Origin: a virus
DNA length: 29,811 bases
Virus record (IMG/VR): IMGVR_UViG_3300020187_000144
Location: 1 to 29,811 of that record
Reading direction: 5' to 3' (one strand)
Under the pieces are notes generated by a model. That model saw nothing but the letters and a program-made list of their open reading frames with translations, was not told the origin of the DNA and did not search any database. The number at the start of each line of letters is the position of its first letter. Position 1 is the first letter of the stretch. This document shows positions 2,247 to 29,811 of the stretch, piece by piece. Position numbers and translations under genes: made by a program.

Positions 2247-4370
2247 ATGACGTTACAAAAACTTCAATTTCGCCCCGGTGCAAACCGCGAAACTACGTCT
2301 TATAGTAACGAAGGCGGTTGGTTCGACATGGACAAGGTTCGTTTTAGGTTTGGTTTTCCAGAAAAAATTGGAGGTTGGATAAAGCAATCTAGTAATTCTT
2401 TTCTTGGAACGTGTCGCGCTCTTCATCCTTGGCTTGCATTAGATGGAACAAACTATCTTGGAGTTGGAACTCACCTAAAGTATTATATAAATCAAGGTGG
2501 TGCATATAACGACATTACACCTATCAGAACAACAACCGCTGCTGGCGATGTAACATTTTCAGCTAATGCAACAACACTTAACGAAACCTTATCAGCTATA
2601 GACACAACAATAACTGTGGCTTCAGCTTCAGGATTTCCGTCTTTTGGCATTATAAAGATAGGCTCTGAGCATATTACTTTTGCAGGTCTTAACGGAAACA
2701 ACCTTATAGGTTGCGTTAGGGGTGCAGATAATACTGTAGCAACTACTCATTCATCAGGCGCTGCTGTTACTATGTCTACTATAATAGTAACAGATACAGA
2801 TCATGGAGCTTTAGTTAATGATTTTGTTACAATTTCTGGTGCAGCAAGTCTTGGAGGACTTGTAACAGCTAACGTTCTTAACCAAGAGTATCAAATTACA
2901 GGCGTTATAAACGATGACAGCTATCAAATTGACGTTCGTGAAGTTGCTGATATTCAAAGTATTACTACTACAACTGGCTTAAATGCAACTTATGTATTTG
3001 CCAATTCTTCAGATAGCGGTAATGGTGGTAGTTCTGTTGTTGGATCTTATCAAATTAACACTGGATTAGATACAACTATTGCTGGAAATGGTTGGAGCGC
3101 AGGTACTTATGGTCGTGGAACTTGGGGTTCAGCAGCAAATTTATCTGCTTCTGGTCAAACTCTTAGAATATGGTCACATGATAACTTTGGTGAAGACTTA
3201 ATCATTAATGTTAGAGATGGTGATATATTCTATTGGGACAACTCAACAAGCTCTGGAACTCCATTTTCAAGAGCTGTTGAGCTTGCTAGTTTAGCTGGAT
3301 CAAATAAAGCACCTGTAATAGCAAAGCAAGTTCTTGTATCTGATAGAGACAGGCATGTAATTGCATTTGGTTGCGATTCTGAAACAAATCCCGGAGTACA
3401 AGACCCTTTATTAATTAGATTCTCTGATCAAGAAAATATTCTTGAATGGCAATCACTTGTAACAAATACTGCTGGTGATTTGCGTATCGGCTCAGGTTCA
3501 AAGATTGTTACTGCTGTAGAAACAAGACAGCAAGTTCTAGTATTTACTGACGTTTCATTGCACGCAATGCAATACTTAGGACCACCACTTACCTTTGGTA
3601 TTAACGCTATTTCTGAAAATATCACAATTGCAAGTCCTCTTGCAGCTATTGCTATTGAGGATAATGTATTCTGGATGGGTGCAGAAGAGTTCTATGTGTA
3701 CGGCGGTGCCGTTCAAAGACTTCCATGCTCAGTAAGAGATTATGTGTTTTCAAACATTAATAGTGATCAAATAGAAAAGGTTACTGCTTCTCTTAACTCT
3801 GCATTTTCTGAAGTTACTTGGTATTATCCATCTGCTTCTAGCTCTGAAAACGATAGTTATGTAACTTATAATTACGATCAAAAAATATGGTATTATGGAA
3901 CTCTATCAAGAACTGTATGGTTAGATCGAGGTGTAAACGCAGAGCCTATAGCTGCGGGTAGCGATCATTATCTATATTTACACGAAATTGGCTTTGATGA
4001 TGGAAGCACAAGCCCAGCTACAGCGATTTCATCATACATTGAAAGCAGTCAGATGGACTTAGGTGATGGTGAGCAATTTGCGTTTATGCGTAGATTAATA
4101 CCAGATATGACCTTTAGAAACTCTACAGCTCCAGTTCCAAGTGCTACTATGACGCTTAAAGTTAGAAATTTCCCCGGCGGAAACTATTTGGACTCTAATG
4201 CAAATACAATTACAAAAACAGCCAGTGTTCCCGTAGAACAATTTACAGAACAGGTATTTGTTCGGCTTAGAGGCAGGTCGTTTGCTTTTAGAATTGAAAG
4301 CGAAGATACTGGTGTAGCTTGGAGATTAGGCTCTCCAAGAGTAGATATTAGACCTGATGGGAGACGGTAA
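2247..4370 (+). CDS. Probable tail hub / packaged-DNA stabilisation protein (P22 gp10-like)
   Basis: This 707-residue protein is rich in beta-prone segments. The N-terminus (RPGANRETTSYSNEGGWFD, then RFRFGFPEKIGGW) and the C-terminal half (SDQENILEWQS, VLVFTDVSLHAMQYLGPP, DNVFWMGAEEFYVYGG, YNYDQKIWYYG) resemble the beta-propeller-type head-closure/tail hub proteins of the P22 gp10 group found in podoviruses. Residues about 100-250 are a Thr/Ser/Ala-rich insert (ITVASASGFPSFGIIKIGSEH), probably an extra surface domain, which explains why it is longer than P22 gp10. AGGAG precedes the ATG. It heads the run of virion genes. The assignment rests on motif resemblance and context only. Confidence 0.55.
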   Translation: MTLQKLQFRPGANRETTSYSNEGGWFDMDKVRFRFGFPEKIGGWIKQSSNSFLGTCRALHPWLALDGTNYLGVGTHLKYYINQGGAYNDITPIRTTTAAGDVTFSANATTLNETLSAIDTTITVASASGFPSFGIIKIGSEHITFAGLNGNNLIGCVRGADNTVATTHSSGAAVTMSTIIVTDTDHGALVNDFVTISGAASLGGLVTANVLNQEYQITGVINDDSYQIDVREVADIQSITTTTGLNATYVFANSSDSGNGGSSVVGSYQINTGLDTTIAGNGWSAGTYGRGTWGSAANLSASGQTLRIWSHDNFGEDLIINVRDGDIFYWDNSTSSGTPFSRAVELASLAGSNKAPVIAKQVLVSDRDRHVIAFGCDSETNPGVQDPLLIRFSDQENILEWQSLVTNTAGDLRIGSGSKIVTAVETRQQVLVFTDVSLHAMQYLGPPLTFGINAISENITIASPLAAIAIEDNVFWMGAEEFYVYGGAVQRLPCSVRDYVFSNINSDQIEKVTASLNSAFSEVTWYYPSASSSENDSYVTYNYDQKIWYYGTLSRTVWLDRGVNAEPIAAGSDHYLYLHEIGFDDGSTSPATAISSYIESSQMDLGDGEQFAFMRRLIPDMTFRNSTAPVPSATMTLKVRNFPGGNYLDSNANTITKTASVPVEQFTEQVFVRLRGRSFAFRIESEDTGVAWRLGSPRVDIRPDGRR

Positions 4371-5924: not shown

Positions 5925-7315
5925 TGGCTGATAGTGTAACAACCATACGGCAATTGCCAGCTTACATGCAGGAATACGATGAGGCGTTGCTTCAACGTAT
6001 TTTTGGCGCTCCTGATGATGAAGGCGTTTTAACAGGTGGGATTATAGATGATCCTAACCTGTTTAATATTCCTGATTATGTTCAAGCAGGAAGAAATCCA
6101 TTACAAGAATCTGTAGTTAATTCATTTGGCACTGAAGAACAACGTCAAGCATTTATGGATCGCTATCAGCCTTACTTTACTGACGAAAGTGGCATAGCAA
6201 GATACTTACCTCAAGCAAGTCAAGGCTTAGGTACTGGCGCGTCTACTATAGCCGATTCACTTGCTAATTATTTTCCAGAAGCTCAAGCATACTTACGTCA
6301 AGGCGTTGGTGGTATAGGTGCAAAGGGAATTTACGACACAGAAACAGCAGAAGCTAAGGCAAGAGCTGATCAATCTACACAATTATTTGATGCTCAACAA
6401 CGTGCAAATGAACTTTTAAGCGATTCTCGTAGCGCAATAAAAGGTGGTTTGGGTCAGTTTGATCCATCATCTGTTGATAAATTTATGAACCCTTATAAAG
6501 AGCAAGTTCTTGATACAGCCTTGGCTAAAATAGATCGTCAAGCTGCACAAAGGCGTCAAGCTGATGCGGCGAACGCTATAAGCAAAGGTGCGTTTGGTGG
6601 TTCACGATCTGGTGTTCAAGCGGCAGAAACAGAAAGAGCCGTTGAAGAGGCAAGGCAAGGCACTATAGCTAATTTAATGTCTCAAGGATATGATAAGTCT
6701 TTAGCCGCAGCTCAAGCCTCTTATGAAAATGCCGCAAAGCGTGGTATAGCTGGTGGTCAGCAACTTGGTTCTTTATCTACAAGTCAGCTCGGCGCAGAAG
6801 CTAAATCATTTGAAGGCGCTGAAGGCAGAATGCTAAAAGCCGCTGATATGTATCGTAGTATGGGTCTATCTAGCGCACAAGCACAAGCTCGTGCCGCAGA
6901 AGATGAACGCAAGCGAAGTTTAGAAACTGGTCGATTAATGGGTGGCCTTGGTGCATCTACAGGTCAACTAGGTGGTGCGCAAGCTGACATAGGTAAAGCA
7001 TACGGTCAATTGGCTGGAACATCTGCTGATATTGGTCAAGTGTATGCTGGAATGGCACCTAAAGACTTAGGATTTATGTATGAAGTAGGCGGAAAAGAAC
7101 AGCAATACGATCAGCAAGCTCAAGACTTCTATCGTCAAAACCAGTTGGCAACTACACAGCAGGCTTTAGCTCCTTATAGTTATGCTCAAAACTATTTAAC
7201 TGGCGCTCCATCTGCGTCAATGTATAGTCAATACTCACAAGGTCCTTCGACTGCTCCTAATCCTTTCCTACAAGGTGTTGGTATGTATGCAACCTACCAA
7301 GGTGCGAATAGATAA
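5924..7315 (+). CDS. Ala/Gln-rich helical virion/ejection protein
   Basis: The 463 residues are dominated by long Ala/Gln/Gly helices (for example LAAAQASYENAAKRG and AQARAAEDERKRSLETGR) with repeated GQ-L/GA-D-IG units around residues 340-385. The C-terminus is Tyr/Ser/Pro-rich and disordered-looking. This composition is typical of internal head or ejection proteins of podovirus-like phages. AAAGGAAAGC lies just before the ATG, which overlaps the upstream stop. No defined domain is recognised. Confidence 0.65.
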   Translation: MADSVTTIRQLPAYMQEYDEALLQRIFGAPDDEGVLTGGIIDDPNLFNIPDYVQAGRNPLQESVVNSFGTEEQRQAFMDRYQPYFTDESGIARYLPQASQGLGTGASTIADSLANYFPEAQAYLRQGVGGIGAKGIYDTETAEAKARADQSTQLFDAQQRANELLSDSRSAIKGGLGQFDPSSVDKFMNPYKEQVLDTALAKIDRQAAQRRQADAANAISKGAFGGSRSGVQAAETERAVEEARQGTIANLMSQGYDKSLAAAQASYENAAKRGIAGGQQLGSLSTSQLGAEAKSFEGAEGRMLKAADMYRSMGLSSAQAQARAAEDERKRSLETGRLMGGLGASTGQLGGAQADIGKAYGQLAGTSADIGQVYAGMAPKDLGFMYEVGGKEQQYDQQAQDFYRQNQLATTQQALAPYSYAQNYLTGAPSASMYSQYSQGPSTAPNPFLQGVGMYATYQGANR

Positions 7316-7328
7316 AAAGGTAAATAAT

Positions 7329-9077
7329 ATGGCTGATCCATCAGGAATTTACGGTGAAAACCCATTTGCAAGCATGACTCCACAAGAATTTTTAAAAGAG
7401 GCTTTGGGTAAAGGCTTGGGTAAAACTCCAATTAGCACTGAGTTTCCCGGCTTAGGAGACGATTTTTCTGATATAGCAGGTATAGATTCTTTTTTTGAAG
7501 ATAGGGCTGAAAACGCTTACAAAGGAATTGACCCTAGTGTTCTTGCAAATCAAGCCGAAGCTGGAAACGAACTTGCTGCGGCTGAAATAGAAAAACGTAG
7601 TAAATCATTACTAGGTGAGTTTGGCGGTCTGGAGCCAATCACAGAGATTCCTAAAATAGATATGTCTGGTTTAGATGTTGAATATCAAATGGAGCAAGCT
7701 GAAAAAGAAAAAGCACAAGGAGAAGCTGCTGAAGCTTTTAGAGCGAATGAGGCACAACTCGTAGATTCTCAAGGTGGACTAAACTCCATGAGTATTGCTG
7801 ATTCTAATACAGTTACTCAAGAACAAGCAGATGAAGGATTTTTATCTGCTATGGATGACTTTCTTGATGCCGCCGTTGGCACTGGTCCGGGCAAGCCAAA
7901 AGAACGCACAATCGAAGAATATAAAAGAGTTTTTTCTGAAGCAACTGGCATTGATACAAGCGGCAAGGTAGATAAAAGTGACGCTCTTATGGCGTTTGGT
8001 CTTGCTTTAATGCAAAATAAAGCTGGAAAAGGCTTTAATGTTTCTAAAATGTTGCAGTCTGTTGGTGAAGCTGGTGACAAAGCGTTACCTGCGCTCACGA
8101 AAGCTAAGGCTGAGGCTAAAAAAGCAGGATTAGCTGCTGGTCAATATGCGCTTACGGCAAAAAATTCTGACAAAGCTAAAGATGAAGTTAATGCGGAAAA
8201 AGCCAGACAACGTTCAGATTACTACATAGTTCCAAAAAGTAAGGGAGTAAGTGGATTTCTTGCTAACATGGATCAAGGGCAATTAGAATCACTAAACTCA
8301 TTTGAGCTTGATGCCCTTATGACCAACAAGTCTTTTAGAGAAAAGTTTGATGTTTTGCCCGGCGGAACATGGTCTGGAATAGTTTCAGAAGCAATGAAAA
8401 CGCCTGAAGCAGAAGCTCTTTACTTGACTAAAGATGCAAACAAAATTTCACTAATTCCCGGTGTTGAAAATGATCTATTTACAATTAAAACTTTCTCCGC
8501 AGACCCTAATGTTGAAGGTAGTGAGGGAAGACCAGCACGCTTAGATGGTGATGGGCAAGCAACATACAAGGCCTTAGCTGCGGCTTCACAAGACCTTCAA
8601 AGAGCAAAAGAAAAATTTATGGAAGGGTTTGGACTGGCTGAAGGCACAAGTGCTTTTAGGTTTACTCTTGATAAAGTCGATTCTTTAGCAGGCGCATTTG
8701 GTATTAATGTAGATGGAATCGCAAATCCTACAGAAAAATTAAAGTTATTTTTAAATAAACTTAAAGCACAAAATGCCAAAGAAATTTTAGGAGAAGCTGG
8801 TAAAACAATTTCAGACGCGGACCGTTTGCTTGTTGAGTCAATTGTTGGTGATGTAAGCGTTTTAACTAATCCAGATGTTCTTGCCGAAAAAATGAGTCAA
8901 CTTTATAATGACGTAATCCTCAAAAAAGAAAGAGAAATATTTTCTGCGCTAGAGACTTTAGATAGATATTCTAACAGAAATATAGCATCTAGGCTAGGGG
9001 GCGGTGGTGAATTGAACTCAGAAGAGCAAGCAGAGTTAGATGCTGCCATAGCTGCAATAGGTGAAAAAAATGGATGA
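7329..9077 (+). CDS. Acidic helical putative internal virion protein
   Basis: I place the start at ATG 7329, preceded by AAAGGTAAATAAT, giving 582 residues; an in-frame ATG at 7275 would overlap the upstream gene and lacks a ribosome site. The protein is acidic and alpha-helical, with Lys/Ala/Glu-rich segments (LTKAKAEAKKAGLAAGQYAL). No catalytic motif was found. Its position between two ejection-type proteins suggests a virion role. The stop overlaps the next start (ATGGATGA). Confidence 0.65.
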   Translation: MADPSGIYGENPFASMTPQEFLKEALGKGLGKTPISTEFPGLGDDFSDIAGIDSFFEDRAENAYKGIDPSVLANQAEAGNELAAAEIEKRSKSLLGEFGGLEPITEIPKIDMSGLDVEYQMEQAEKEKAQGEAAEAFRANEAQLVDSQGGLNSMSIADSNTVTQEQADEGFLSAMDDFLDAAVGTGPGKPKERTIEEYKRVFSEATGIDTSGKVDKSDALMAFGLALMQNKAGKGFNVSKMLQSVGEAGDKALPALTKAKAEAKKAGLAAGQYALTAKNSDKAKDEVNAEKARQRSDYYIVPKSKGVSGFLANMDQGQLESLNSFELDALMTNKSFREKFDVLPGGTWSGIVSEAMKTPEAEALYLTKDANKISLIPGVENDLFTIKTFSADPNVEGSEGRPARLDGDGQATYKALAAASQDLQRAKEKFMEGFGLAEGTSAFRFTLDKVDSLAGAFGINVDGIANPTEKLKLFLNKLKAQNAKEILGEAGKTISDADRLLVESIVGDVSVLTNPDVLAEKMSQLYNDVILKKEREIFSALETLDRYSNRNIASRLGGGGELNSEEQAELDAAIAAIGEKNG

Positions 9078-12000
9078 TCGCACTAAGCTAACATTAATTA
9101 GAGGAATAAAGTCTGGCGCTTTTAATGACAGACAGAAGCTAGAAGCTTTTAGAGCCATCAAAGGTAATGTTGAAAACAATGACGTAGCTGATCTTATTGG
9201 TTCACTTTCGTTTTCTACTTTGAGAAGTGGAAAGAGCCTCAAGGATATGTCAGATGAGCGTCAAGGTCGAGACACTACAAACTTTGATTATAGTACAGGT
9301 GCGGATGGGACGCTACGATCTTTACTATCATTTGCAGAAACTGATAAAGACCGCGAAGCCATATTAAAGAAAATGGTTGGTGAGGCTGGATTTGTTAGAG
9401 ATGCGGGTGGAAATCTTGCCTTAACTCAAGAAGGTCAAAAAGTTCGTGGTATGGAGCCTATCGGAAAAAATCTTGTTATAGACGAAACTGGTTTTAGTAT
9501 GCGAGACATATCTGACTTAGCTGGAATAGTTCCAGAGACTGTTGGGTCTGTAGCTGGCGCAATAATTGGTGGAGGTCCAACTCTTGGTTTTGGCGCTGTA
9601 GCAGGTGCTGGAATAGGCGCGGGTTTAGGTCAAGCTGCTGAAGAAGTTATTGAAGGTTGGTTAGGTGTTCAAACTCAAAGCCTTGGTGATGTAACAAAAG
9701 ACGTTATGAAGGAAGCGGCTATTGGCGCGGCTGGAGAGGCTATTGCTGGAACTGTTATCGCTATAGGTAGAGGTGTTGTCGGTGGCGGGAAAAAGCTTGC
9801 AGGAAGAGCATCTGGAGCTATGGTAGAAGAGCCTATAGATGCTGCGGCAAGACTTCGACTTGAGCGCGGAGAATCTTTGTTAGAAAGAGGTTACATACCA
9901 TCCTTGGGTTCTTTGGGTGCTAACGAAAGATTAGCATACCTTCAAAAGTTTGGTGAAAATGCTGCAAAAGATACGGCTAGAATTCAAGCTAATTTAGCCG
10001 CAGCATTGCGTGATAAGCAGACATTCTTATCTGGAATTACAGATGATGCGGTAGAGACTTTAGGCTCTGAAGCTACAAAGATGGCTCCAATACGATTTAA
10101 ACAATTAAATGCAACTAAAAGAAAAGCTGATAGGCTTTATATATCAGCTTTAGACGATAGTATAAATTTAATGAGAAAAGCTGTAGATGAAAACTTTGAG
10201 TTAAACACTTCAACTCTTGGCGCAATTACAAAAGCATTTGATGGATTTCAAACATCTATGGTAGATGGTTATGGCTCTGTTGATGACATACTTGGAAAAA
10301 TTAAAGGCGAGATAACCTTGTCTGATGGAACGCAAGCGGCAAGAACAGGTGGACAACTTCGTATTTTTGATACTGAAAACTTGATGTCTAAATTTAAAAA
10401 CTACGAAGAAGATTTTGGTAGAGCATTGTTGGAAGGTCCAGTAGGCACTGCATATGATGCTCTAAAAGGTTTTCAAAAAAATCAACAAGGAAAAGCCTCT
10501 TTCAAAAACTTAGTTAATTTAAGAAAAAACGTAAATGACGAACTTATGTTCGGGTCTAGCACTGCCGGAACAAAACAATTGGATGAAATTAAAGGTGCGT
10601 TAGACACCATGCTTAATGACGATACTATTTTAAATGGTGTAACAGGTCTAAATAGAACAGATAAAGGTTTACTTGTGGACGCCGCAAAACGCAGGTTAAC
10701 TCAACAAAATATGTATAAAGAAGGCATTAAAAGATTTGAAGAGCTTTCTAACATTGGAGTTATTAAATCTATTAATGGATTAAAATCTTTTGGAGATTCA
10801 AGTCCTAGAGAAATTTCTGACAAATTCTTTAAAAAAGTTGTTCAGAACGACTCTCCGCAAAGGTTAAGGGCAGTTTTAAAAGCTACTGACAACCCAGATG
10901 AGTTACTTTCTAATCTTAGCCGTAGCTTTCTTGATGATGCTTTGGAAACGGCTGGTAGGGACCCGATAAATCCTGAAAAATTTAATGGCAAAACATTCGC
11001 CAAAAAAATAAAAGACCTTAAAACTACTGGTAAAGTTTTGTTTGGAAAAGATTGGAACAAAATTCAAAAGCTTGCTAACAGCATTAATCAAGCAGATATT
11101 AGTGGAAAGTTGTCTATAGATGATATTGCTAGGGTTAGCGCTGCTGGAGGAGACAAAGGCATAGTTGAGTCTATGGAAGCTGTTGTTCAAGCGCAAAAGC
11201 AGATAGATATAGCTGGATCAACATCTGTAGTTAAAAATTTAGACCCCAGAAAAGTTTCTATGTACTCAAGTTACGATGATGTTGTGGCGGCACTAACGAA
11301 GCCAAGCCTCACTGAAAGCGAAACTATACAAATAATGAAGTTTTTTGATGGTAACGATCAACTAATTCAAAGTATGAAAAATGTTGTACTTCAAGATATA
11401 ATGAAAGTCGTAGACGATACTGTCCTTGAAAGTGCGCAAAATGCAGGCTCTTTGCGTAAAACTTTAGATCAATATAAACCAAAATCTTTAAGTCGAATAT
11501 TGGGCGCAGATACATATAAGGCTTTAGATAGCTTTGCCGATGATTTAATTATGCTTGGAGACGCTGGAAAAGAAGGCTCAATCGCCGCTGGTAGTATATG
11601 GTCGCAGATGTTCAGTCATCCTTTAAATGTATTAGGAAAAATTGGTAAATTTAAAGTTATGGCTAGTATGTTTAGTAAGCCTCAAAATGTTAAAAAATAT
11701 ATTGAAATGAGAAAAGCTTCTGCAAATAACCCAGAGTCTCGTGGTAATGTAATGCTATCTATGATGAACCAAGCTGCGCTTGACGAGGGTATTGATGTCG
11801 GAGGTCAAGCAGCACTTGCAGGTCGAATTGCAAGTGGGGTAGGCTCCGCAACGGGTCAAGTTAGTCGTGCAGGTCTTCAATCTCAACCTCGTATAGCGGT
11901 TAATGAAGAAGGTCCATTTAGACAAAAAAGCCGAACAAGTGTTCCCAATGTTGAGCCTTTAGATTTAAGTCTTTTTGACGTTCCTGAAATAAGACAACCT

Positions 12001-12144
12001 CAAGCTACATATACTCCGCTAAGTCCAATTGAAAAAATACAACAAGAAGCGATTAGAAAAATGTCTCTTAGAGATCGCGCAAGACAAAGCCCTGCGGCAG
12101 CGGCTACTTTGTTAGGCGGTTTAGGTAACGCTGATCTTCTTTAG
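9070..12144 (+). CDS. Large putative internal virion / DNA ejection protein
   Basis: I choose ATG 9070, with AGGTGA six bases upstream, giving 1024 residues; GTG 9061 would add three residues and overlaps that ribosome site. Residues about 145-200 and 215-240 are Gly/Ala-rich hydrophobic segments (AGAIIGGGPTLGFGAVAGAG; GEAIAGTVIAIGRGVVGG) that could insert into membranes. The rest is helical and charged, with a Pro-rich tail near 950-1000. A huge helical protein with membrane-active segments at the end of the virion operon fits the largest ejection protein of podovirus-like phages (T7 gp16 or P22 gp16 by analogy of position). No lytic transglycosylase motif was seen. Confidence 0.65.
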   Translation: MDDRTKLTLIRGIKSGAFNDRQKLEAFRAIKGNVENNDVADLIGSLSFSTLRSGKSLKDMSDERQGRDTTNFDYSTGADGTLRSLLSFAETDKDREAILKKMVGEAGFVRDAGGNLALTQEGQKVRGMEPIGKNLVIDETGFSMRDISDLAGIVPETVGSVAGAIIGGGPTLGFGAVAGAGIGAGLGQAAEEVIEGWLGVQTQSLGDVTKDVMKEAAIGAAGEAIAGTVIAIGRGVVGGGKKLAGRASGAMVEEPIDAAARLRLERGESLLERGYIPSLGSLGANERLAYLQKFGENAAKDTARIQANLAAALRDKQTFLSGITDDAVETLGSEATKMAPIRFKQLNATKRKADRLYISALDDSINLMRKAVDENFELNTSTLGAITKAFDGFQTSMVDGYGSVDDILGKIKGEITLSDGTQAARTGGQLRIFDTENLMSKFKNYEEDFGRALLEGPVGTAYDALKGFQKNQQGKASFKNLVNLRKNVNDELMFGSSTAGTKQLDEIKGALDTMLNDDTILNGVTGLNRTDKGLLVDAAKRRLTQQNMYKEGIKRFEELSNIGVIKSINGLKSFGDSSPREISDKFFKKVVQNDSPQRLRAVLKATDNPDELLSNLSRSFLDDALETAGRDPINPEKFNGKTFAKKIKDLKTTGKVLFGKDWNKIQKLANSINQADISGKLSIDDIARVSAAGGDKGIVESMEAVVQAQKQIDIAGSTSVVKNLDPRKVSMYSSYDDVVAALTKPSLTESETIQIMKFFDGNDQLIQSMKNVVLQDIMKVVDDTVLESAQNAGSLRKTLDQYKPKSLSRILGADTYKALDSFADDLIMLGDAGKEGSIAAGSIWSQMFSHPLNVLGKIGKFKVMASMFSKPQNVKKYIEMRKASANNPESRGNVMLSMMNQAALDEGIDVGGQAALAGRIASGVGSATGQVSRAGLQSQPRIAVNEEGPFRQKSRTSVPNVEPLDLSLFDVPEIRQPQATYTPLSPIEKIQQEAIRKMSLRDRARQSPAAAATLLGGLGNADLL

Positions 12145-16477: not shown

Positions 16478-16783
16478 ATGCCAAGATTTGAAATGTATCT
16501 TATGCTTGCTGAAAAAGAAGATGATAAAGTTGAGACTTGTGAATACGAGATGATTTGTTGGGTTAAAGACTCAACTAACATGGAAGAAATAAAAGCTTCT
16601 GCGAATGAAAAAATCAACGATCACATTGAAGAGGCCAAGAGTATTGTCCTGTTTGGCACCGCAAGTATTAGAGTTAAAGGTGAAGAAGTTATAAACATTG
16701 GGTTTAGAAACAGCGAAATAAATCCTGATGACATTGATGATGTCATAGATTTGTTCGACTTAAATGAGGAGACAGTACATTGA
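16478..16783 (+). CDS. Hypothetical acidic protein
   Basis: The 101 residues are strongly acidic, especially the C-terminus (NSEINPDDIDDVIDLFDLNE). The N-terminus has a short beta-rich part (PRFEMYLMLAEKEDDKVETC). AGGGACTGAATAG precedes the ATG. Overlap with the next gene (TTG start inside the TGA stop) places it in the replication operon. No family recognised. Confidence 0.65.
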   Translation: MPRFEMYLMLAEKEDDKVETCEYEMICWVKDSTNMEEIKASANEKINDHIEEAKSIVLFGTASIRVKGEEVINIGFRNSEINPDDIDDVIDLFDLNEETVH

Positions 16784-17016: not shown

Positions 17017-17737
17017 TGAAAATCCTGTAGCAGATAGTATTACTAAGGTCGTAGATGATGCGATTGTTGCGAATGAAGAAAAAAGGGAGAGACGCAAGTA
17101 TATCGGTGCTTCTAGCATTGGTGATGAGTGTCAGCGTAAAATACAATATCGCTATTTAAACTATGCGATTGATAAAGATAAAGCATTTAGCGCAAGAACT
17201 TTGCGTATCTTTCAGTTCGGTCATGAGATAGAAGAGTATGCTTCTAAGTGGTTAAAAGATGCAGGGTTTGATTTACGCACAGAACAAAAAGATGGAAAGC
17301 AGTTTGGTTTTTCTATAGCGGATGGGGAGATTCGCGGTCATATAGATGGCGTAATATGTGATGGTCCTGTTGAAATGGGCTACCCTGCTCTTTGGGAATG
17401 TAAGTCAGCAAATGATAGCAAGTTTAAGGCGTTTGTTCGTCATGGTGTAGCCAAGGCTAACCCAGTGTATGCTACGCAACTTGCATTATACCAGACCTAT
17501 ATGGAGCTTTATGAACATCCTGCGTTGTTTACTGTTATCAATAAAAACACGTCTGAAATATACTATGAGCTTGTACCTTATGATAAAAGGTTGGCTCAAG
17601 AGGCAAGCGACAAGGCAGTGAATATCTTGACTGCGGCGAAAGCAGGTGACATTCTACCTCGTATTGCTCACACCAAAGATTTTTTTCTTTGTAAGTTTTG
17701 TGAGTTTAGGGAAACTTGTTGGGGAGCAGATCAATGA
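16949..17737 (+). CDS. RecB/Cas4-like PD-(D/E)XK nuclease with Fe-S cysteines
   Basis: TTG 16949 with AAGGAGATAAACA gives 262 residues. The RecB-type nuclease motifs are complete: H92 (GHEIEE), D133 (HIDGV), E150-C-K152, and QLALY (Q177, Y181). C61 upstream and C248-x2-C251-x5-C257 at the C-terminus match the four cysteines that hold a 4Fe-4S cluster in Cas4 and AddB-type nucleases. The product is probably a 5' or 3' resecting exonuclease that makes single strands for Sak4. No CRISPR features are near. It overlaps the primase-helicase by four bases (ATGA). Confidence 0.88.
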   Translation: MGNSKKSTISQQALGLLLQSHSNENPVADSITKVVDDAIVANEEKRERRKYIGASSIGDECQRKIQYRYLNYAIDKDKAFSARTLRIFQFGHEIEEYASKWLKDAGFDLRTEQKDGKQFGFSIADGEIRGHIDGVICDGPVEMGYPALWECKSANDSKFKAFVRHGVAKANPVYATQLALYQTYMELYEHPALFTVINKNTSEIYYELVPYDKRLAQEASDKAVNILTAAKAGDILPRIAHTKDFFLCKFCEFRETCWGADQ

Positions 17738-19947
17738 ATATACTGAGCGTTGGCAAGTCACCTAAAGATGTAGCCGAGCGTATTTCGAGAGAAGTGCCTC
17801 GTAGCGTACAGCTACAAACATTGATAGATACATATCCAGAAGGCGTTCAAAGGGGTAAAGAATTTTATATTGGATCTCTTCGTGGTGAGGCAGGAAAGTC
17901 TATGGTTATTAACATAGACATGCAAAGTCCTTGGTTTCTTAACGGGAAAGATTTCGAATCAGGTGAAGGTGTCGGGGGCATATGCAAGATATTTAAAGAA
18001 GGTCGGGGCTATTCACTAGCTGAATGCGTTGAATACTTTAAAGAATACATAAGCCCAGACTACGTTGCCCCGCCAGAAAACATTGTTAAGCCGAACAATC
18101 CGTCAAACTTTGCAGTTACAACTGCGCAGCAGGGATTTCCACAGCAACAAAAGAGCATGAGCATCAACTCAAGCACAGATTTTGAGGATGAATACAACTA
18201 TACCGACGAAAATGGCATAGTTATTGTATCAGTTCGTAAGTATTTTGAGAAAAATGTAGAAGGTGAATTGGTACTTGACGCATCTGGTAAGCCTAAAAAG
18301 CAGTTTCGTCAGTTTATGGAAGGTCGCCAAGGCATTCCAGAACCTAGACCTCTATACAATATCCCGAACATTTTGGATTCAGACAAAGTTATTTGGGTTG
18401 AAGGTGAGAAATGTGCTGATGCGCTTACATCTCTTGGGTATGTAGCAACTTGCACAATTGGCGGTGCTGGTATGTTGTCAGAAAACACAGCATATAAGTT
18501 TGATTTCACGCCGCTAAAAGGTAAAGAGCTAATACTTTGGCCTGATAATGACGCCGCAGGCAAGAAGCTTGCATCTATTGTTGAAGCTCAAGCGAAAGAA
18601 GCGGGCGTAAAGTCCACAATGATTCTTAAAATACCTACTACTAAGTCTGAAAAGTGGGATGCCGCTGATGCCGTTGAAGAGGGCTTTAACATTGAGAAGA
18701 TGCTCAAGAAGAATGAGAGAAGTGTAAAGAAACCAATTAACTTACTTGATGAAAGCCTGTTAGTTGACCAATACTTTATCGGGTCAGTGCCTGAGCAGAA
18801 GTTTCTCATTGGTGATACAATACCTCTTGGAGTTCCATGCGTATTTGCGGCGGCAGGAGATAGCGGTAAAGGCATGATGACACTTGATTTAGCCATGAAG
18901 GTTGCGTCAGGTACATCTATGCAGTCTGCTTTTGGTGGTTTAGTTGCAGAACACGGCGATGTCATATTAATTACAGCAGAAGATGACAAAGACGAAATGC
19001 ACAGACGTATTTCTCGTCTTGACCCTCAAAGACATAGAGAAGTTTACAGCCATAAACTGCGCGTCTTACCATTGCCAAACCTTGGTGGTGTCTTTCCTAT
19101 CATGCAGAAGTTCGACAATACATACTTGATGGGTGAAGAGTTCTCTCGGATTTATGATCAGATGCTAGAGATGGAAACGTTAAAGCTAATCGTAATTGAC
19201 CCTATGGCCTCGTTTGTTCACGCAGATGTAAACGCTGATCCGGCGGCAGGGGCTGCATTCATGAGTTTACTTGCACAGATGGCTACTGAAACTGGTGCTA
19301 CTGTTATGGTTAATCACCATATGGCAAAGATCAAAGACAACGATCCAGTCACAACACCAGAACAAGCGCGTAGTCTTATTCGTGGTACTTCTGCTATTGT
19401 TGATGGCGTTCGGTCTGCATTTGCGGTCTGGTCTGTCGATGAAGGCACAGGAAAACAACGCTGTCGTGATCTTAATGTAGAATATACGCGTAATGGTGTA
19501 TTTGATGGAGCTGTCGTTAAGTCAAATGGTCCTGCAAATCGAGATATTAGACATTTTATCCGTAATCCAAATACAGGTTTGCTTGAAGATAGATCACAAG
19601 ACATAAGGTCTATAACGATGTCACAATCTGTTCGGGATAGACTAGCGCATATTGTTGAGTTTGTTAGAATTAGAGAATTAGATGGTCGTGCCGTTACACA
19701 TGGTGGTGTCAATAGTGGTATATTCCATGCTATTCGTGAGTCGGAAGCTATTGAGCCTTGTGTAGTTTATTTGAAAAATGCAGGCCGTGAAACAACTATC
19801 AAGAAAGCCGTTACTGAAGCTCTCGCTATGGGAATGATACGAAAGTATGCCCTATCAACAGGTGGTGATGAGAGGTGGCTTGGCGTTATGGATGGATCAC
19901 TCGCTAGAGGTGAGTATGAGCGTCAAACAGGTCGAGATAACATTTGA
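17734..19947 (+). CDS. TOPRIM primase / RepA-like hexameric helicase fusion
   Basis: ATG 17734, in an ATGA overlap and preceded by GGGGAG, gives 737 residues; an upstream start at 17716 is poorer. The N-terminal 100 residues resemble the region before phage primase domains. TOPRIM follows: VEGEK near 222-226 and the metal-binding PDNDAAG near 269-275. The RecA-fold helicase has a P-loop AAAGDSGKGMMTLDLA near 371-386 and Walker B LIVIDPMASF near 487. The residue after the P-loop Lys is Gly rather than Ser/Thr. It would prime and unwind at the replication fork, using a polymerase not found in this window. Confidence 0.88.
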   Translation: MNILSVGKSPKDVAERISREVPRSVQLQTLIDTYPEGVQRGKEFYIGSLRGEAGKSMVINIDMQSPWFLNGKDFESGEGVGGICKIFKEGRGYSLAECVEYFKEYISPDYVAPPENIVKPNNPSNFAVTTAQQGFPQQQKSMSINSSTDFEDEYNYTDENGIVIVSVRKYFEKNVEGELVLDASGKPKKQFRQFMEGRQGIPEPRPLYNIPNILDSDKVIWVEGEKCADALTSLGYVATCTIGGAGMLSENTAYKFDFTPLKGKELILWPDNDAAGKKLASIVEAQAKEAGVKSTMILKIPTTKSEKWDAADAVEEGFNIEKMLKKNERSVKKPINLLDESLLVDQYFIGSVPEQKFLIGDTIPLGVPCVFAAAGDSGKGMMTLDLAMKVASGTSMQSAFGGLVAEHGDVILITAEDDKDEMHRRISRLDPQRHREVYSHKLRVLPLPNLGGVFPIMQKFDNTYLMGEEFSRIYDQMLEMETLKLIVIDPMASFVHADVNADPAAGAAFMSLLAQMATETGATVMVNHHMAKIKDNDPVTTPEQARSLIRGTSAIVDGVRSAFAVWSVDEGTGKQRCRDLNVEYTRNGVFDGAVVKSNGPANRDIRHFIRNPNTGLLEDRSQDIRSITMSQSVRDRLAHIVEFVRIRELDGRAVTHGGVNSGIFHAIRESEAIEPCVVYLKNAGRETTIKKAVTEALAMGMIRKYALSTGGDERWLGVMDGSLARGEYERQTGRDNI

Positions 19948-20223: not shown

Positions 20224-20546
20224 TGGATAAAATTCCACAAAAAGTTGTTGATAAGTATCAAGATGTATATAAGCAGTTTTGGGAAATTCAAATGAAGAAA
20301 GATCGCAAAGCTAACCCAAAGCTTGATTCAATATCGCCTAACTATAAAAAAAGAAGAGCATCGTTTCACATTGTTAAAGATGAAAGCAGTGAAAAAGAAC
20401 CAAAAGCCCTTACAAAGCAAGCAACTACAATTAATATGTTGTTGCTTCGGGGCTTCGGGATTAAAGAAATATCAGCAGTTATACATACTTCTGAGAAAGC
20501 AATCGTAAAGATTAAAGATAAATACGAGCTGCCAAGAGAAAATTAA
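20223..20546 (+). CDS. Small helix-turn-helix-like protein
   Basis: ATG 20223 (TAATG overlap, AGGTGGG upstream) gives 107 residues; GTG 20214 is a weaker alternative. The C-terminal part, with TINMLLLRGFGIKEISAVIH then TSEKAIVKIKDKY, looks like an HTH with a recognition helix. The N-terminal part is very basic (KKDRKANPKL, YKKRRASF). This suggests a DNA-binding regulator of the replication operon. It converges with the prion-like gene, and the two stops overlap by four bases. Confidence 0.6.
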   Translation: MDKIPQKVVDKYQDVYKQFWEIQMKKDRKANPKLDSISPNYKKRRASFHIVKDESSEKEPKALTKQATTINMLLLRGFGIKEISAVIHTSEKAIVKIKDKYELPREN

Positions 20547-21715
20547 TAGAATTGCTGCGCTGGCTGCTGTCCATAACCTGAGAAATTGTTCGAGTTACCA
20601 TACTGCTGCGGCTGGTACGGGTTTGACATCGGGGCAAAACTACTCTGACCACCATAACCTTGACTCATTCCGTACCCGCCGTATTGTTGCGGCTGGGGAT
20701 AAGGCTGTTGATAAGGACTTTGCTGGTATCCGCCACCTTGCATTCCGTATTGCTGGTAAGGTGATTGCATTGGCTGCTGCCCATAACCCGAATAATTCAT
20801 AGGCTGCTGCATTCCATAATTCTGCTGCGGGCGCTGCATACCATAACCCGAATAATTCATCATTGGCTGCGGGCGCTGCATACCACCATAACCCGAATAA
20901 TTCATTGGCTGCTGGGGCCTGAACATTCCGAATCCACCCATAATACCTTGAGGTCTTTGCGGAAATTGAGGTCTTTGAGGAAATCCACCAAACATTCCCA
21001 TGCCCGTAGGTCTTTGACCGCCAATACCCATACCCATGTTCGGGTTACGATACTGCTGAGTCGCTTGGTACGTTTGATTTGCACCATAACTTCCTACTAA
21101 ATTTTTTTGAGCTTGAGTTAATCCACCCATAAACTCATCAAAAGCGGATTGATCAAACTTAGGTCCAGTATAATTAGGATTCATTGGATTGTTTGGGAGA
21201 TGCGAACCACTGTGTGGTGGCCTTCTTGGACTGAAATCAGGTTGAGGTTGATTAGTTTTAAGAGGTGGTTGACCAGAAAATGAAGCCATAGAATTTTTAC
21301 GCTCATCTCTATACTCTTCAAAAGTTTGATTTTCAGTCGGCAAAACAACACGACCCATAAATCCGTTGGCTCTTTGATCTGCGGCTTCTTTCTTTAGCCT
21401 ATCATATTCTCGCCTTACTGGATCAGAAGAAGGAAAAATAGGTTGGCTAAATAAATTAGGTCTAAGATTTCCACCACTAGGTAAAAGGCCACCAAATTTA
21501 TCTCTATTATTTTTATATTCTTCAAAGGTTTGACCTTCGGTTGGCAAAACAACTTGCCCCATAAAGCCTCCGGCTCTTCTATCTGCCGCTTCCTTTTTTA
21601 ACCTATCATATTGACTTCTTATATCTTCTGTAGGTTGGGTCATAATTCCAGAAGACAAACTAGGTCGTCCCATCTGCATCGGTCTAATTGATTTTGCGTA
21701 AGGTGAAGCTACCAT
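20543..21715 (-). CDS. Prion-like Q/P/G/Y-rich protein with duplicated N-terminal module
   Basis: The 390 residues split in two. At about 33-75 and 99-140 there are two near-identical modules (YDRLKKEAADRRAGGFMG and YDRLKKEAADQRANGFMG, each followed by VVLPTE-x-QTFEEY). From about residue 215 to the end the sequence is low complexity, dominated by Gln, Pro, Gly, Tyr and Met with repeats MNYSGYG, MQRPQ, GYGQQP and PYQQ. No membrane segment or signal peptide is visible. It has its own promoter with an operator across the -10, GGAG before ATG, and lies alone on the minus strand. Disorder with Tyr/Gln repeats suggests condensation or adhesive scaffolding, either in a replication compartment or in the virion; not established. 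Confidence 0.8.
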   Translation of the reverse strand: MVASPYAKSIRPMQMGRPSLSSGIMTQPTEDIRSQYDRLKKEAADRRAGGFMGQVVLPTEGQTFEEYKNNRDKFGGLLPSGGNLRPNLFSQPIFPSSDPVRREYDRLKKEAADQRANGFMGRVVLPTENQTFEEYRDERKNSMASFSGQPPLKTNQPQPDFSPRRPPHSGSHLPNNPMNPNYTGPKFDQSAFDEFMGGLTQAQKNLVGSYGANQTYQATQQYRNPNMGMGIGGQRPTGMGMFGGFPQRPQFPQRPQGIMGGFGMFRPQQPMNYSGYGGMQRPQPMMNYSGYGMQRPQQNYGMQQPMNYSGYGQQPMQSPYQQYGMQGGGYQQSPYQQPYPQPQQYGGYGMSQGYGGQSSFAPMSNPYQPQQYGNSNNFSGYGQQPAQQFY

Positions 21716-21734
21716 GTATAATCTCCGAGTGAAC

Positions 21735-21771
21735 TTGTTCGGGTTATACCATTTATTTAGTTTTCGATCAA
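21735..21771 (-). promoter_or_regulatory. Operator-overlapped promoter of the prion-like gene
   Basis: On the minus strand TTGATC (21766-21771) and TATAAC (21743-21748) are spaced by exactly 17. The TTGTTCGGGTTA motif (21735-21746, plus-strand orientation) overlaps the -10 and extends to the expected transcription start. A protein bound there would block RNA polymerase, which is the best evidence that the motif is an operator. Confidence 0.65.
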
Positions 21772-24954: not shown

Positions 24955-24975
24955 TAACACAGCAGTAGGTTGTAT

Positions 24976-24997
24976 AACCCGATGATTTGTTCGGCTT
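24976..24997. promoter_or_regulatory. Near-complete operator palindrome
   Basis: AACCCGATG then ATTT then GTTCGGCTT. The left arm matches 7 of 9 ideal positions (AACCCGAAC) and the right arm 8 of 9. It lies about 22 bp upstream of the small RNA -35 box. Confidence 0.5.
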
Positions 24998-25003
24998 ATG
25001 TAA

Positions 25004-25578: not shown

Positions 25579-25772
25579 GCGGCTTGCTCCTTTTCAATTT
25601 CAGTAAGTGCGCGTTTCAAACTACGTTTAACGCGTTTTGATCTACTAGGCAAAACGAGGGCATCTAAGCCCTCGATCAACCATGAAATTTCCATAGCGGT
25701 CATAGAAACCTTAATAGCGGGGATTAAATGAACTTTCCCGCTAGTGTCGGTTTGCTGCAAATGGTACATCAT
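25575..25772 (-). CDS. Small basic hypothetical protein
   Basis: I place the start at ATG 25772, in an ATGA overlap with the upstream stop and preceded by AAAGGAGCTAGTAGC, giving 65 residues (MMYHLQQTD...). A frame from 25817 has no ribosome site. The C-terminal half is a strongly basic helix (VLPSRSKRVKRSLKRALTEI), suggesting nucleic-acid binding. No family recognised. Confidence 0.6.
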   Translation of the reverse strand: MMYHLQQTDTSGKVHLIPAIKVSMTAMEISWLIEGLDALVLPSRSKRVKRSLKRALTEIEKEQAA

Positions 25773-26170
25773 GCTACTAGCTCCTTTGCATCTGCTCTCG
25801 CGCGGCGTAAATGCCAATCGTCAAGGCCAAAATCTTTGTAGCCTTCTTCAATCATACGATAATAATGCTCACTAGGTAAACTGGTGCGCGACTGATCAAC
25901 CATTTCGTAAATAATCCATGCGCCGTTTAGTTTACGCCTATTGTAAAAATGCGGGTAGCCCTCAAGTCTATCTAAAGAACGTAAGCAATCATGCGTAATT
26001 TCCCACAATACAACAGGCAAAACGCTTTCAACGTCTGGAACAAAATCAGCAACGCCGCGAAATACTAGCCTATGATCTGGCAGGTAAAACGCGCCCATTG
26101 GTTTTGCTTGTGGACACCGAACCGCCATAGATTCGCGGTTGGTGTTCATTCCATATGCCATATAAAACAT
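25769..26170 (-). CDS. Gamma-glutamylcyclotransferase-like protein (GGACT/AIG2)
   Basis: The 133 residues match the GGCT/AIG2 fold: the YGMN box at residues 6-9 (substrate loop), RCPQAKPMGAFYL, DHRLVFRGVADFVP, VLWEITHDCLRSLDRLEGYP with the expected catalytic E70, and YNRRKL. These enzymes cyclise gamma-glutamyl amides, releasing 5-oxoproline and the amine. In phages they are known to travel with amidoligases (genome-context work by Iyer, Abhiman and Aravind on amidoligases), and an amidoligase-like gene begins at 29776. GAGGAGG gives a strong ribosome site. Confidence 0.85.
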   Translation of the reverse strand: MFYMAYGMNTNRESMAVRCPQAKPMGAFYLPDHRLVFRGVADFVPDVESVLPVVLWEITHDCLRSLDRLEGYPHFYNRRKLNGAWIIYEMVDQSRTSLPSEHYYRMIEEGYKDFGLDDWHLRRARADAKELVA

Positions 26171-27350: not shown

Positions 27351-27374
27351 GCAAAAACATAAGAAAACTTATGC

Positions 27375-27548
27375 ATTGATTTTAAACGATTTTCTACGTC
27401 AACTTTTTTCACGTCAAAACCTGACGCAGTTGATGTTGACGTAGAATTATGTTTGTTTTCAATGGTTTAGGTAGTTTACGTCAACTACGTCAGTTTTGCG
27501 TTTTGACGTAGAATATTGTTTAAAATCAATAGGTTATTTTACGTCAAC
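27375..27548. repeat. Iteron-like cluster, candidate replication origin
   Basis: A 28-bp element beginning TTGACGTAGAAT and ending TCAAT occurs three times: 27503-27530 (plus), 27436-27463 (plus, 22 of 28 bases identical) and 27375-27402 (minus, 26 of 28 identical). Extra GTTGACGT or ACGTCA half-sites lie at 27410-27415, 27478-27492 and 27541-27547. The outer copies form a long inverted repeat. The cluster fills the spacer between the divergent early operon and the terminase gene, where a replication origin or master control region would be expected. Confidence 0.55.
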
Positions 27549-27555
27549 CGCGTCA

Positions 27556-27591
27556 CCCCCCTTATAGGGGGGGTTATATAACCAACCCCCC
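27556..27591. other. C6/G7/C6 alternative hairpins around a 12-bp palindrome
   Basis: CCCCCC (27556-27561), GGGGGGG (27567-27573) and CCCCCC (27586-27591) are spaced so that the G-run can pair with either C-run (loops of about 5 and 12-13 nt). The perfect palindrome GGTTATATAACC (27572-27583) lies between. It could be a structural switch, a DNA-unwinding element beside the iterons, or a terminator shielding the terminase gene. Confidence 0.45.
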
Positions 27592-27713: not shown

Positions 27714-28235
27714 ATGCCAAAGGTCGGAGAACAAATAGAAAAGGGCGGACGTAGGTTGCAGCCACAACAGCAAAAGTTTTTAGATAATTATATTCACAAA
27801 GATATGACCCAAACGGGTGCGGCTCGGGCGGCAGGGTATAAGTCGCCGAATGTAAGAGCCGTTCAGCTTCTTAACAATCCAGTTGTTAAAGAACGAATGG
27901 AAGAAATGAGACAGGAACTCGAAAGCAAGTACGGGGTTTCTGTAACCAAATCTGTTCGGGATATGCAACGACTCAGAGATGAAGCATGGGAAGCAGGGAA
28001 CTTCGGGGCGGCTATTAAAGCAGAAGAACTCCGACTCAAGGTAACGGGGCTTATGGTAGCCCGTAGCCATGTAACGCATGAAAACGTTGATAATATGACA
28101 CGGGATCAAATCGTTAAACAATTGCAGGATTTCATGACTCGCGCTAAAGATCGCATGATTGATGTTACACCTGAACCAAATCCCACAAAACCCGAACAAA
28201 TCGACATAACATACGATAACGAAGAAGCTGTATAG
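27714..28235 (+). CDS. terS: Terminase small subunit
   Basis: The 173 residues match terminase_2: QPQQQKFLDNYIHKDMTQTG, AARAAGYKSPNVRAVQLLNN and PVVKERMEEM form the N-terminal HTH-containing DNA-recognition domain, followed by a helical region (SVRDMQRLRDEAWEAGNFGA, AIKAEELRLKVTGLM) that drives oligomerisation. It recognises the packaging site on phage DNA. AAAGGTTTGTAA precedes the ATG. Promoter signals upstream are weak (TTGTTC-17-TATGTT). The large subunit is not in the window and presumably lies beyond the right end. Confidence 0.85.
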   Translation: MPKVGEQIEKGGRRLQPQQQKFLDNYIHKDMTQTGAARAAGYKSPNVRAVQLLNNPVVKERMEEMRQELESKYGVSVTKSVRDMQRLRDEAWEAGNFGAAIKAEELRLKVTGLMVARSHVTHENVDNMTRDQIVKQLQDFMTRAKDRMIDVTPEPNPTKPEQIDITYDNEEAV

Positions 28236-28300
28236 CGCAGGTTGCGCTCCGTGTGGGTGGTCTGGCGGGGTCTTAGACGCCCAGAAACACACCGCCTAGC
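28234..28300. other. Stem-loops after terS, possible packaging or processing element
   Basis: Right after the terS stop, AGCGCA-GGT-TGCGCT is a perfect 6-bp hairpin. A second, bulged hairpin pairs TCTGGCG with CGCCCAGA, flanked by GTGT/ACAC. No T-run follows, so it is not a standard terminator. Its place beside terS makes a packaging site possible. Confidence 0.3.
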
Positions 28301-28313
28301 GCCTGAAGCAAAC

Positions 28314-28935
28314 TTGTTCGGGTTCAGGGTTGCAAACTTGTTCGGGATAGCCTCAGCGGGCTTTAAAATCCATTAGAAAAAAATAAAGATTCGGGCTGTC
28401 AGCTCTTTGCCTGAACCGTAACCCGACAAATTGTTCGGGATAGTGCTGCTAGATTTTTGATGCTATTCGCCGGGATATAAGCCGATAAATTGTTCGGGTT
28501 AGCGGCAGCAGCAAAACGCCCGGCGCAGCGAAGATTTTGAATCGGGGTTATAAACCGAAGAATTGTTCGGGTTCGGGGCAGCCAAAAGCAGCACACAGAA
28601 GAGAAACTGCTGCAACTTTTATCCCCATATCGTAAACTTGCTGCGAAAAATTTTTTCCGGCAGCGCAGCGCGGGATGACAAAGCGCACAATTGTTCGGGT
28701 TATTCGGGGTGCAGCTGAGTCAGCAGCAGCAAGATGACTCGCTGCCCGCAGCAGCAGAAAGTTAGAATTAGAAAACGCAGCCGCAGCAAGCAGCACAACT
28801 CGCACAATTGTTCGGGTTACGCCCGGACTCGCAGCAGCGCAGCGGCAGCACGCAGCAGATCCTGAAAAATTTCCGGCAGCCTGAAAAATTTCCGGCAGCT
28901 CGTGAGCAGCAACAACCCAAACAATTGTTCGGGTT
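28314..28935 (+). repeat. Array of eight TTGTTCGGG operator-like sites in a gene-free region
   Basis: TTGTTCGGG(T/A)T starts at 28314, 28338, 28431, 28490, 28563, 28691, 28808 and 28925, all in the same orientation (intervals 24, 93, 59, 73, 128, 117, 117). In the last six copies the left side also matches the complement, 6 to 8 of 9 positions; the best (28914-28935) is a 22-bp palindrome with one mismatched pair. Between sites lie GCAGC-rich sequence and hairpins such as 28711-28745. I see no credible ORF in 28236-29037. Confidence 0.7.
28862..28899. repeat. Perfect 19-bp tandem repeat
   Basis: CTGAAAAATTTCCGGCAGC occurs twice head to tail (28862-28880 and 28881-28899). A degenerate copy with a longer A/T block lies at 28641-28664. 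It is inside the operator array and may be part of the same regulatory or replication structure. Confidence 0.7.
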
Positions 28936-28977
28936 AGTCCAGCAGGACCGCAGCCGAATCTTTTTTTACTTTACCTG

Positions 28978-29023
28978 TTGACATATATATAGGTGTGGGA
29001 TATTGTGGGATTATTCTAGTAAA
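28978..29023 (+). promoter_or_regulatory. Sigma70-type promoter with TTCTAGTAAA leader
   Basis: TTGACA (28978-28983), a 17-base spacer, TATTGT (29001-29006), GGGAT and TTCTAGTAAA (ending 29023), then GAGGAG and ATG 29038. The last operator of the array ends 42 bp upstream of the -35, suggesting array-dependent control of this promoter. Confidence 0.7.
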
Positions 29024-29037
29024 GAGGAGAAAAACAA

Positions 29038-29464: not shown

Positions 29465-29519
29465 TTCGGGTTCGGGGTCGGGCTTCGGGGATCGGGCTTT
29501 CGGGTTCGGGGTCGGGCTT
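29465..29519. repeat. GC-rich 21-bp direct repeat beside an AT-alternating tract
   Basis: A 21-base unit (TTCGGGTTCGGGG ... GGGCTT) occurs perfectly at 29465-29485 and 29499-29519, with a related 13-base spacer. It is followed at about 29520-29580 by alternating TA/CA (TATATAC, ACACATA) sequence. The unit is made of overlapping TCGGG blocks like the operator core. The spacer 29439-29775 has no credible gene. Confidence 0.6.
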
Positions 29520-29610: not shown

Positions 29611-29759
29611 TTGTTCGCTTTATTTAACCTATAGCAATGTTATGCGTTCCCGTGGTTTTAAAATAAACTTCACAATTGTTCGTTTTACCCTTGTTATATG
29701 GGATTATATGGGATAATGTCTTTTTAAGGGAGGGCGGCGTGCCTGACCATTCTAGTAAA
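29611..29759 (+). promoter_or_regulatory. Leader region of the amidoligase-like gene
   Basis: Two operator variants (TTGTTCGCTTT at 29611, and ACAATTGTTCGTTTT ending 29686) precede a weak promoter, TTGTTA (29691-29696), 17 bases, TAATGT (29714-29719). TTCTAGTAAA (29750-29759) and AAAAGG stand before ATG 29776, repeating the shared leader element, here about 30 bases from the -10. Confidence 0.5.
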
Positions 29760-29775
29760 AAAGGTAACAAAAACA

Positions 29776-29811
29776 ATGACTTACACATTTGGAATAGAAA
29801 TAGAAACAAGC
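29776..29811 (+). CDS. Start of an amidoligase-like gene (cut by window)
   Basis: Only 12 codons are visible, MTYTFGIEIETS. The F-G-x-E-I-E-T signature at the extreme N-terminus is typical of the phage amidoligase_2 family (glutamine synthetase-like fold), where the glutamates bind metal. Such enzymes form amide bonds with peptide or amine substrates. Ribosome site AAAAGG and the TTCTAGTAAA leader support this start. The GGACT gene at 25769-26170 is its known genomic companion. Certainty is limited by the short visible part. Confidence 0.5.
   Translation, partial: MTYTFGIEIETS

Follow-up and report, generated by a model that had tools for sequence, protein, structure and literature searches.

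Directly downstream of its terminase small subunit gene (terS), the phage genome fragment analyzed here, which belongs to a family of uncultured aquatic phages, carries an array of eight exact + strand copies of a short motif, TTGTTCGGG, at 28314–28933, and this array is kept in hundreds of related viral contigs. We lean towards reading it as a cluster of operator sites bound cooperatively by a phage-encoded enzyme-regulator, here termed Amid, following a logic like that of BirA. Amid is an amidoligase of glutamine synthetase (GS) fold fused to a C-terminal winged HTH, with ggct as its partner gene, and judging from sequence it is probably the ligand of the sites. This prediction rests on the sites themselves, on their conservation and helical spacing, on their disappearance together with amid and ggct, on the fusion of the two domains, and on a palindrome upstream of amid.

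As such, the sites supply a phage amidoligase, from a widespread enzyme family of unclear function, with a concrete candidate DNA ligand and a role that can be tested, and they suggest that a phage metabolic enzyme doubles as a transcription factor. Furthermore, the sites are ordered by genome position and not by transcription, which operator and stoperator models do not predict, and their losses in close sisters would allow comparative work when hosts come into culture. Cluster A mycobacteriophages already provide examples of dispersed, oriented repressor sites, and bacteria of enzyme-repressors. In a limited search of open-access literature, we found nothing on the motif, nor the combination of an amidoligase–winged-HTH fusion with a conserved array and position-dependent polarity, and it is in this sense that the combination is new.

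The array and its repeat unit

The window, that is, the whole stretch of 29,811 nucleotides that was analyzed, is a 29.8-kb viral contig in which the array is flanked by its fixed neighbor terS (27714–28235, +; Terminase_2, PF03592) and by a short set of small genes. This downstream set ends in the first 12 codons of the amidoligase–winged-HTH gene (MTYTFGIEIETS; 29776–29811, +), where the window also ends; homologues of this gene carry PF12224 and PF11994. A relative that is 99.1% identical to the window over 2 kb (L003) holds the full amidoligase gene of 364 aa, preceded by one extra small gene. The gamma-glutamyl cyclotransferase-like gene ggct (PF06094) occupies 25769–26170 (−). No convincing gene is found in the interval 28236–29037, in agreement with its earlier description as gene-free.

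The eight same-orientation copies reported in the initial annotation were all recovered on the + strand, with starts at 28314, 28338, 28431, 28490, 28563, 28691, 28808, and 28925 and spacings of 24, 93, 59, 73, 128, 117, and 117 bp. When one mismatch is allowed, TTGTTCGGG is matched 37 times in the window versus 4.65 ± 2.52 times in shuffled sequences, none of the 100 shuffles reaching 37. Two more exact copies lie outside the array, at 21735 (+) and, within terS, at 28191 (−).

The repeat unit is an imperfect palindrome, AACCCGAACAATTGTTCGGGTT, composed of a near-invariant right arm and a weaker, partly conserved left arm. Across 163 distinct array copies aligned from relatives, the consensus is AACCCGA..AATTGTTCGGGTTA, and 98% of the copies keep the A located two bases ahead of TTGTTC. 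A weight matrix derived with the window left out finds 26 window sites scoring at least 12, versus none in five Markov shuffles. Each array site contains the exact motif on the + strand. Site 1 (28302–28325, AACTTGTTCGGGTT; matrix score 18.9) is mostly a right half-site, and site 2 (28326–28349; 16.7) is likewise a half-site. They are followed by sites 3 (28419–28442; 29.1), 4 (28478–28501; 29.7), 5 (28551–28574; 31.2), 6 (28679–28702; 28.8), and 7 (28796–28819; 31.1). Site 8 (28913–28936; 31.8) is the best palindrome and stands 5′ of a promoter-like TTGACA near 28979; its 22-bp palindrome, AACCCAAACAATTGTTCGGGTT at 28914–28935, had already been singled out as the best of the set, and indeed departs from perfect symmetry by a single mismatched base pair. 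Mismatches between the left and right arms are one-sided and no compensatory pairs are seen, which indicates that the symmetry serves recognition of DNA rather than the folding of an RNA stem. An RNA hairpin was rejected on these grounds and on the absence of an Rfam match.

Other repeats accompany the array. Repeated TGGGATATTGTGGGATTATTCTAGTAAA... elements, promoter and leader in kind, precede two small-gene units at 28989–29037 and 29690–29772, and tandem TTCGGGTTCGGGGTCGGGCTT repeats, including two identical 21-bp copies, occupy 29465–29519. Repeats of ATCGGG/TCGGGCTT resembling the latter recur after small genes in relatives, with or without the main sites. Upstream of terS, a divergent region at 27360–27560 holds repeated palindromic TACGTCAAC/TTGACGTAGAA elements, possibly a second operator set.

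Conservation and helical spacing

The array is conserved at the same place among relatives. A close TerS is encoded on 80 contigs; almost every one that reaches past terS has the array there, the clear exception being L029. In relatives whose TerS is 50–60% identical to that of the window, the first site mostly falls 70–92 bp after the terS stop codon, with more sites before the amidoligase gene. A scan of the viral collection with the motif alone, TerS not being used, returned matches that all belong to the same phage family, except for L190, a contig that yielded none of the marker genes. A bacterial source of the motif was rejected, the sole match in genome_contigs being to the betaine-gene region of a Marinobacter MAG, where two TTGTTCGGGTT copies lie 98 bp apart (L204:158–268); it was judged to be probably coincidental.

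In relatives, the spacings between adjacent sites fall into clusters at 95, 104–105, and 115 bp, with a periodicity of 10.5 bp (R = 0.26 across 524 distinct pairs, with a probability value that is inflated by kinship); the spacings of the window's own array are more mixed than these clusters. This helical spacing, together with the imperfect palindrome and its one-sided departures, supports the original proposal of an array for a dimeric DNA-binding protein.

Under the operator reading, Amid would bind the palindrome AACCCGAACAATTGTTCGGGTT as a dimer and read the right arm, TTGTTCGGG, most strictly. In relatives, copies lie whole helical turns apart (about 95, 104, and 115 bp), an arrangement that would allow bound dimers to touch or loop, and the terS–amid interval may then serve as a cooperative switch over Amid's own promoter and the small genes there. 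A cooperative autoregulatory operator typically consists of sites on one helical face beside the promoter of the ligand gene. The ligase would be coupled to the operator as in BirA, with presumed repression by Amid and presumed metabolite sensing, and single sites elsewhere may widen the regulon or block elongation locally.

An amidoligase fused to a winged HTH

In a profile search, Amid matches Amidoligase_2 (PF12224) at 73.2 bits, versus a curated cut-off of 22, and the same domain is recognized in 24 of 24 homologues. The DUF3489 winged HTH is matched by 17 of the 24 (best E 4e-9) and other HTH profiles by others; in the one paper found to mention DUF3489, it is assigned by fold recognition only. 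An AlphaFold model of Amid (pLDDT 88.7) features a core that resembles glutamine synthetase (Z about 12) and, at the C-terminus, an H-H-H-strand-wing-strand unit, that is, an HTH plus wing, which modelled alone reaches a pLDDT of 81.5. Winged-HTH proteins, MepR and BrxR among them, make up most of the top Foldseek matches to this C-terminal model, although no match is significant (E 0.07 or worse). A sequence profile search with the winged domain likewise gave no significant match to a solved structure. Across these phages, mean pairwise identity is 0.45 in the winged domain versus 0.36 in the enzyme core.

In about 16 genomes, a near-perfect palindrome, CCGAACAATTGTTC (10–14 of 14 positions), lies 88–160 bp upstream of the amid start, its commonest position being −96 to −121. 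The window has a variant site, CACAATTGTTCGTTTTA (29664–29687, +; matrix score 15.6), in intergenic DNA about 100 bp upstream of the amidoligase start. Between the Amid recognition helix and the site logo no co-variation is visible, as the site hardly varies.

The closest parallel in function is BirA, which is both ligase and repressor (PMC6391492). Like Amid, it is a ligase fused to a winged HTH, with a palindromic operator and control of its own pathway, both of which are expectations in the case of Amid. It differs in having an N-terminal HTH, a biotin ligase fold, and one operator, whereas Amid combines a GS fold and a C-terminal winged HTH with many putative operators. Amidoligase_2 enzymes of Porphyromonas, Bacillus, and Arthrobacter phages share the catalytic domain at 25–30% identity; among the 20 listed of 32 amidoligase-bearing phage records, none aligns past residue 226, which precedes the HTH of Amid.

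Natural losses of the sites

Two phage lineages are without all or nearly all sites, yet their TerS proteins are close (97% and 92%). The first is represented by three contigs of one clade (G031–G033) in which TerS, TerL, and primase are 97%, 99%, and 90% identical, respectively, to those of site-bearing sisters. These contigs hold no exact site and only two weak matrix matches in about 61 kb. Unlike all site-bearing relatives examined, they are devoid of amid, ggct, and a downstream 83-aa gene; a small gene that ends the helicase operon is also absent. Downstream of terS, a GP88-family gene (PF17338) replaces amid (L318, L321–L324), and ATCGGGATCGGGG-type repeats remain there. The second, independent loss is that of L029, a 6.8-kb contig whose TerS is 92% identical to that of the window and in which the array is absent, with no amidoligase gene within 3.3 kb downstream and no ggct within its 3 kb upstream. 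Its downstream region carries a Mom-family DNA-modification gene (PF25680; 5892–6593) and, upstream of the genes that replace amid, a different palindromic array (L029:4580–4680) made up of five GTGATCACA about 20 bp apart, four of which are TTGTGATCACA. Modules of an array plus a gene appear to be exchanged in the terS–terL interval.

At 192 loci that span terS and 3 kb of sequence downstream, amid and the sites are both present. Two loci (L102 and L145) have sites and no amidoligase match; they probably end before the gene, considering that their sister L168 has amid 3.3 kb after terS. Five contigs with an amidoligase gene and no site begin at or just before that gene, so that the upstream interval is cut off. 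The regulator candidate amid and the sites were lost jointly in two events. These involve linked, neighboring genes, so that the effects of amid, ggct, and the 83-aa gene are confounded; moreover, few remote sites went missing, at one or two per genome in the G031–G033 clade. Among the three co-lost proteins, a DNA-binding domain is recognizable only in the amidoligase. The product of the gene starting at 29776 is the probable cognate, in place of the RHH, Fis-type, Myb-like, and 20214 proteins that were originally put forward.

The G031–G033 clade keeps near-identical TerS, TerL, and primase without the sites, and therefore packaging and replication by TerS and primase do not need them, which is strong evidence against a pac site bound by TerS and against an origin that depends on primase. 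For the same reason, TerS alone cannot be the ligand and was rejected as such; a C5-methyltransferase was rejected as well, its gene being absent in the site-bearing genome G001. The array follows terS in nearly all relatives, with its first site about 70–110 bp past the stop codon, an arrangement that would suit a packaging site (pac/cosB-like) bound by the TerS encoded next to it. Given that TerS is 97% identical in the site-less clade and that sites are spread over the whole genome, such a function is very improbable. Replication origin iterons bound by the primase-helicase, an option named in the initial annotation, would be in keeping with repeats in an intergenic region and with a primase that is RepA-like. 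However, the losses leave TerS, TerL, and primase nearly unchanged, the primase being 90% identical in site-less lineages, and spacings of about 100 bp are unlike those of iterons, so that we give this option hardly any credence.

A further possibility is that the host SOS regulator controls the phage through LexA boxes. The site core, CGAACAATTGTTCG, fits the Gram-positive LexA consensus, CGAACNNNNGTTCG. This is most unlikely to be the explanation, because the sites are lost with amid and ggct in close sisters and their GGGTT flank and AATT center are conserved beyond a LexA box.

Dispersed sites and their orientation

Beyond the array, sites are found across the genomes of these phages, as exemplified by the 54.6-kb genome G003, which has them over its whole length. 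The window contains an intergenic site 70 bp before gene 2247–4370 (2165–2188, +; matrix score 20.6), a site of opposite orientation on the other arm within gene 9061–12144 (11927–11950, −; 21.8), and one within gene 20543–21715 (20574–20597, +; 24.4). Two more are intergenic: one upstream of the − strand gene 20543–21715 (21723–21746, +; 17.3), present at the same place in G001, and TAACCCGATGATTTGTTCGGCTTA (24975–24998, +; 24.5). In coding DNA outside the terS–amid interval of 19 genomes, 37 copies occur versus 1.76 in synonymous codon shuffles, about 21 times the expectation, and the motif accordingly survives codon correction. With the array also kept at its place in relatives, it has come through both of the refuting checks set out in the initial annotation. 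By strand, 16 of these copies are sense and 21 antisense. Dispersed matrix sites lie within genes in 73% of cases, and 46 of 173 are intergenic where the intergenic share of sequence is 8.1%, which amounts to intergenic enrichment.

In the scaffold gene region of the structural gene block, a site recurs in similar context in five genomes (G003 at 8816, G013 at 6064, G019 at 15805, G024 at 16549, and G028 at 17570). With gene orthology assumed, G003 and G024 appear to read different frames at this site, which would suggest selection on DNA and not on protein.

The dispersed sites point to the array from both sides, regardless of local gene direction, in 84 of 107 distinct contexts, although context clustering leaves some shared descent in these counts. 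In the helicase-to-terS arm, + sites account for 53 of 65 distinct contexts, and in the arm from amid round to the replication genes, − sites account for 31 of 42. Sites in + orientation outnumber − sites in the former arm over + genes (33:3) and − genes (18:3) alike, and hence orientation does not follow transcription; beyond amid, − sites prevail over + sites by 31:8 over + genes. All 13 sites of G003 obey the rule, with the switch inside the array. Overall, the orientation reverses at two places in the genome irrespective of the genes there, with about 20% exceptions (roughly one site in five), one of which is the window site at 2165. Coding-strand preference was rejected as the cause, considering the sense and antisense counts and the gene-independent orientation. 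This polarity was unexpected and no ordinary operator model accounts for it: simple operators do not predict an orientation that tracks genome position. The large share of dispersed sites inside genes also counts against the operator reading.

Stoperators, at which a repressor bound to dispersed sites stops elongation in the manner of cluster A mycobacteriophages, were among the options first proposed. They remain the nearest of these in that the copies here are dispersed and oriented, many of them inside genes above codon expectation. The likeness does not extend to orientation, which in cluster A is held constant relative to transcription (PMC6550527) and here is independent of it. In cluster A phages, too, a single repressor site recurs in many oriented copies across the genome, some of them intragenic, but these are 13-bp asymmetric elements with one main orientation to transcription and a dedicated repressor that binds as a monomer, whereas the present sites are palindromes that cluster next to terS and whose orientation follows genome position. 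An integrase or lysogeny module was not identified here, and we regard stoperators as distinctly unlikely.

In Tus/Ter and KOPS systems, too, the sites are oriented and reverse their direction at two positions on a circular map. The present sites could similarly constitute a polar, genome-wide DNA signal (Tus/Ter-, KOPS-, or Chi-like), with the array where the orientations meet and the winged-HTH amidoligase or another protein serving as a directional block or guide. The strand counts in both arms and the full agreement in G003 speak for such a signal, as does the lack of any site from the aaa24 start to the helicase end. We nevertheless deem it unlikely. Site-less lineages replicate and package with nearly the same proteins, so that the oriented set would have to be an optional layer; the rule is broken at a fifth of the sites; the arms are very unequal (about 12–16 versus 40 kb); and GC skew follows gene direction and marks no origin. 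Unlike in Tus/Ter and KOPS, no Tus, RTP, or FtsK-like partner was found here, and the sites are optional. A more specific version, in which an amide-forming enzyme with a DNA-binding domain acts on polar sites aimed at a hub beside terS, would represent a directional genome signal (a fork trap, a translocation guide, or guided modification) not described in phages, and we consider it rather doubtful.

Named relatives

By TerL, the nearest named phages are the Pelagibacter phages HTVC027P and HTVC023P and the lake phage DSL-LC04, at 55–60% identity, and no DNA similarity to the window was found in named phages. All three resemble the present phages in having terS upstream of terL and differ from them in other replication genes. 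Among these cultured relatives, HTVC027P has unrelated GCTTGAA repeats near terS. In DSL-LC04, TTGTTCGGG is not enriched in the first 31 kb, the half that was tested, and the position of amid is taken by what reads from its sequence as a DUF932-like protein. Between terS and terL, DSL-LC04 carries TGTTTGT...TACAAACA palindromes (L207:17160–17183 and 18860–18915), possibly an unrelated array at the same place.
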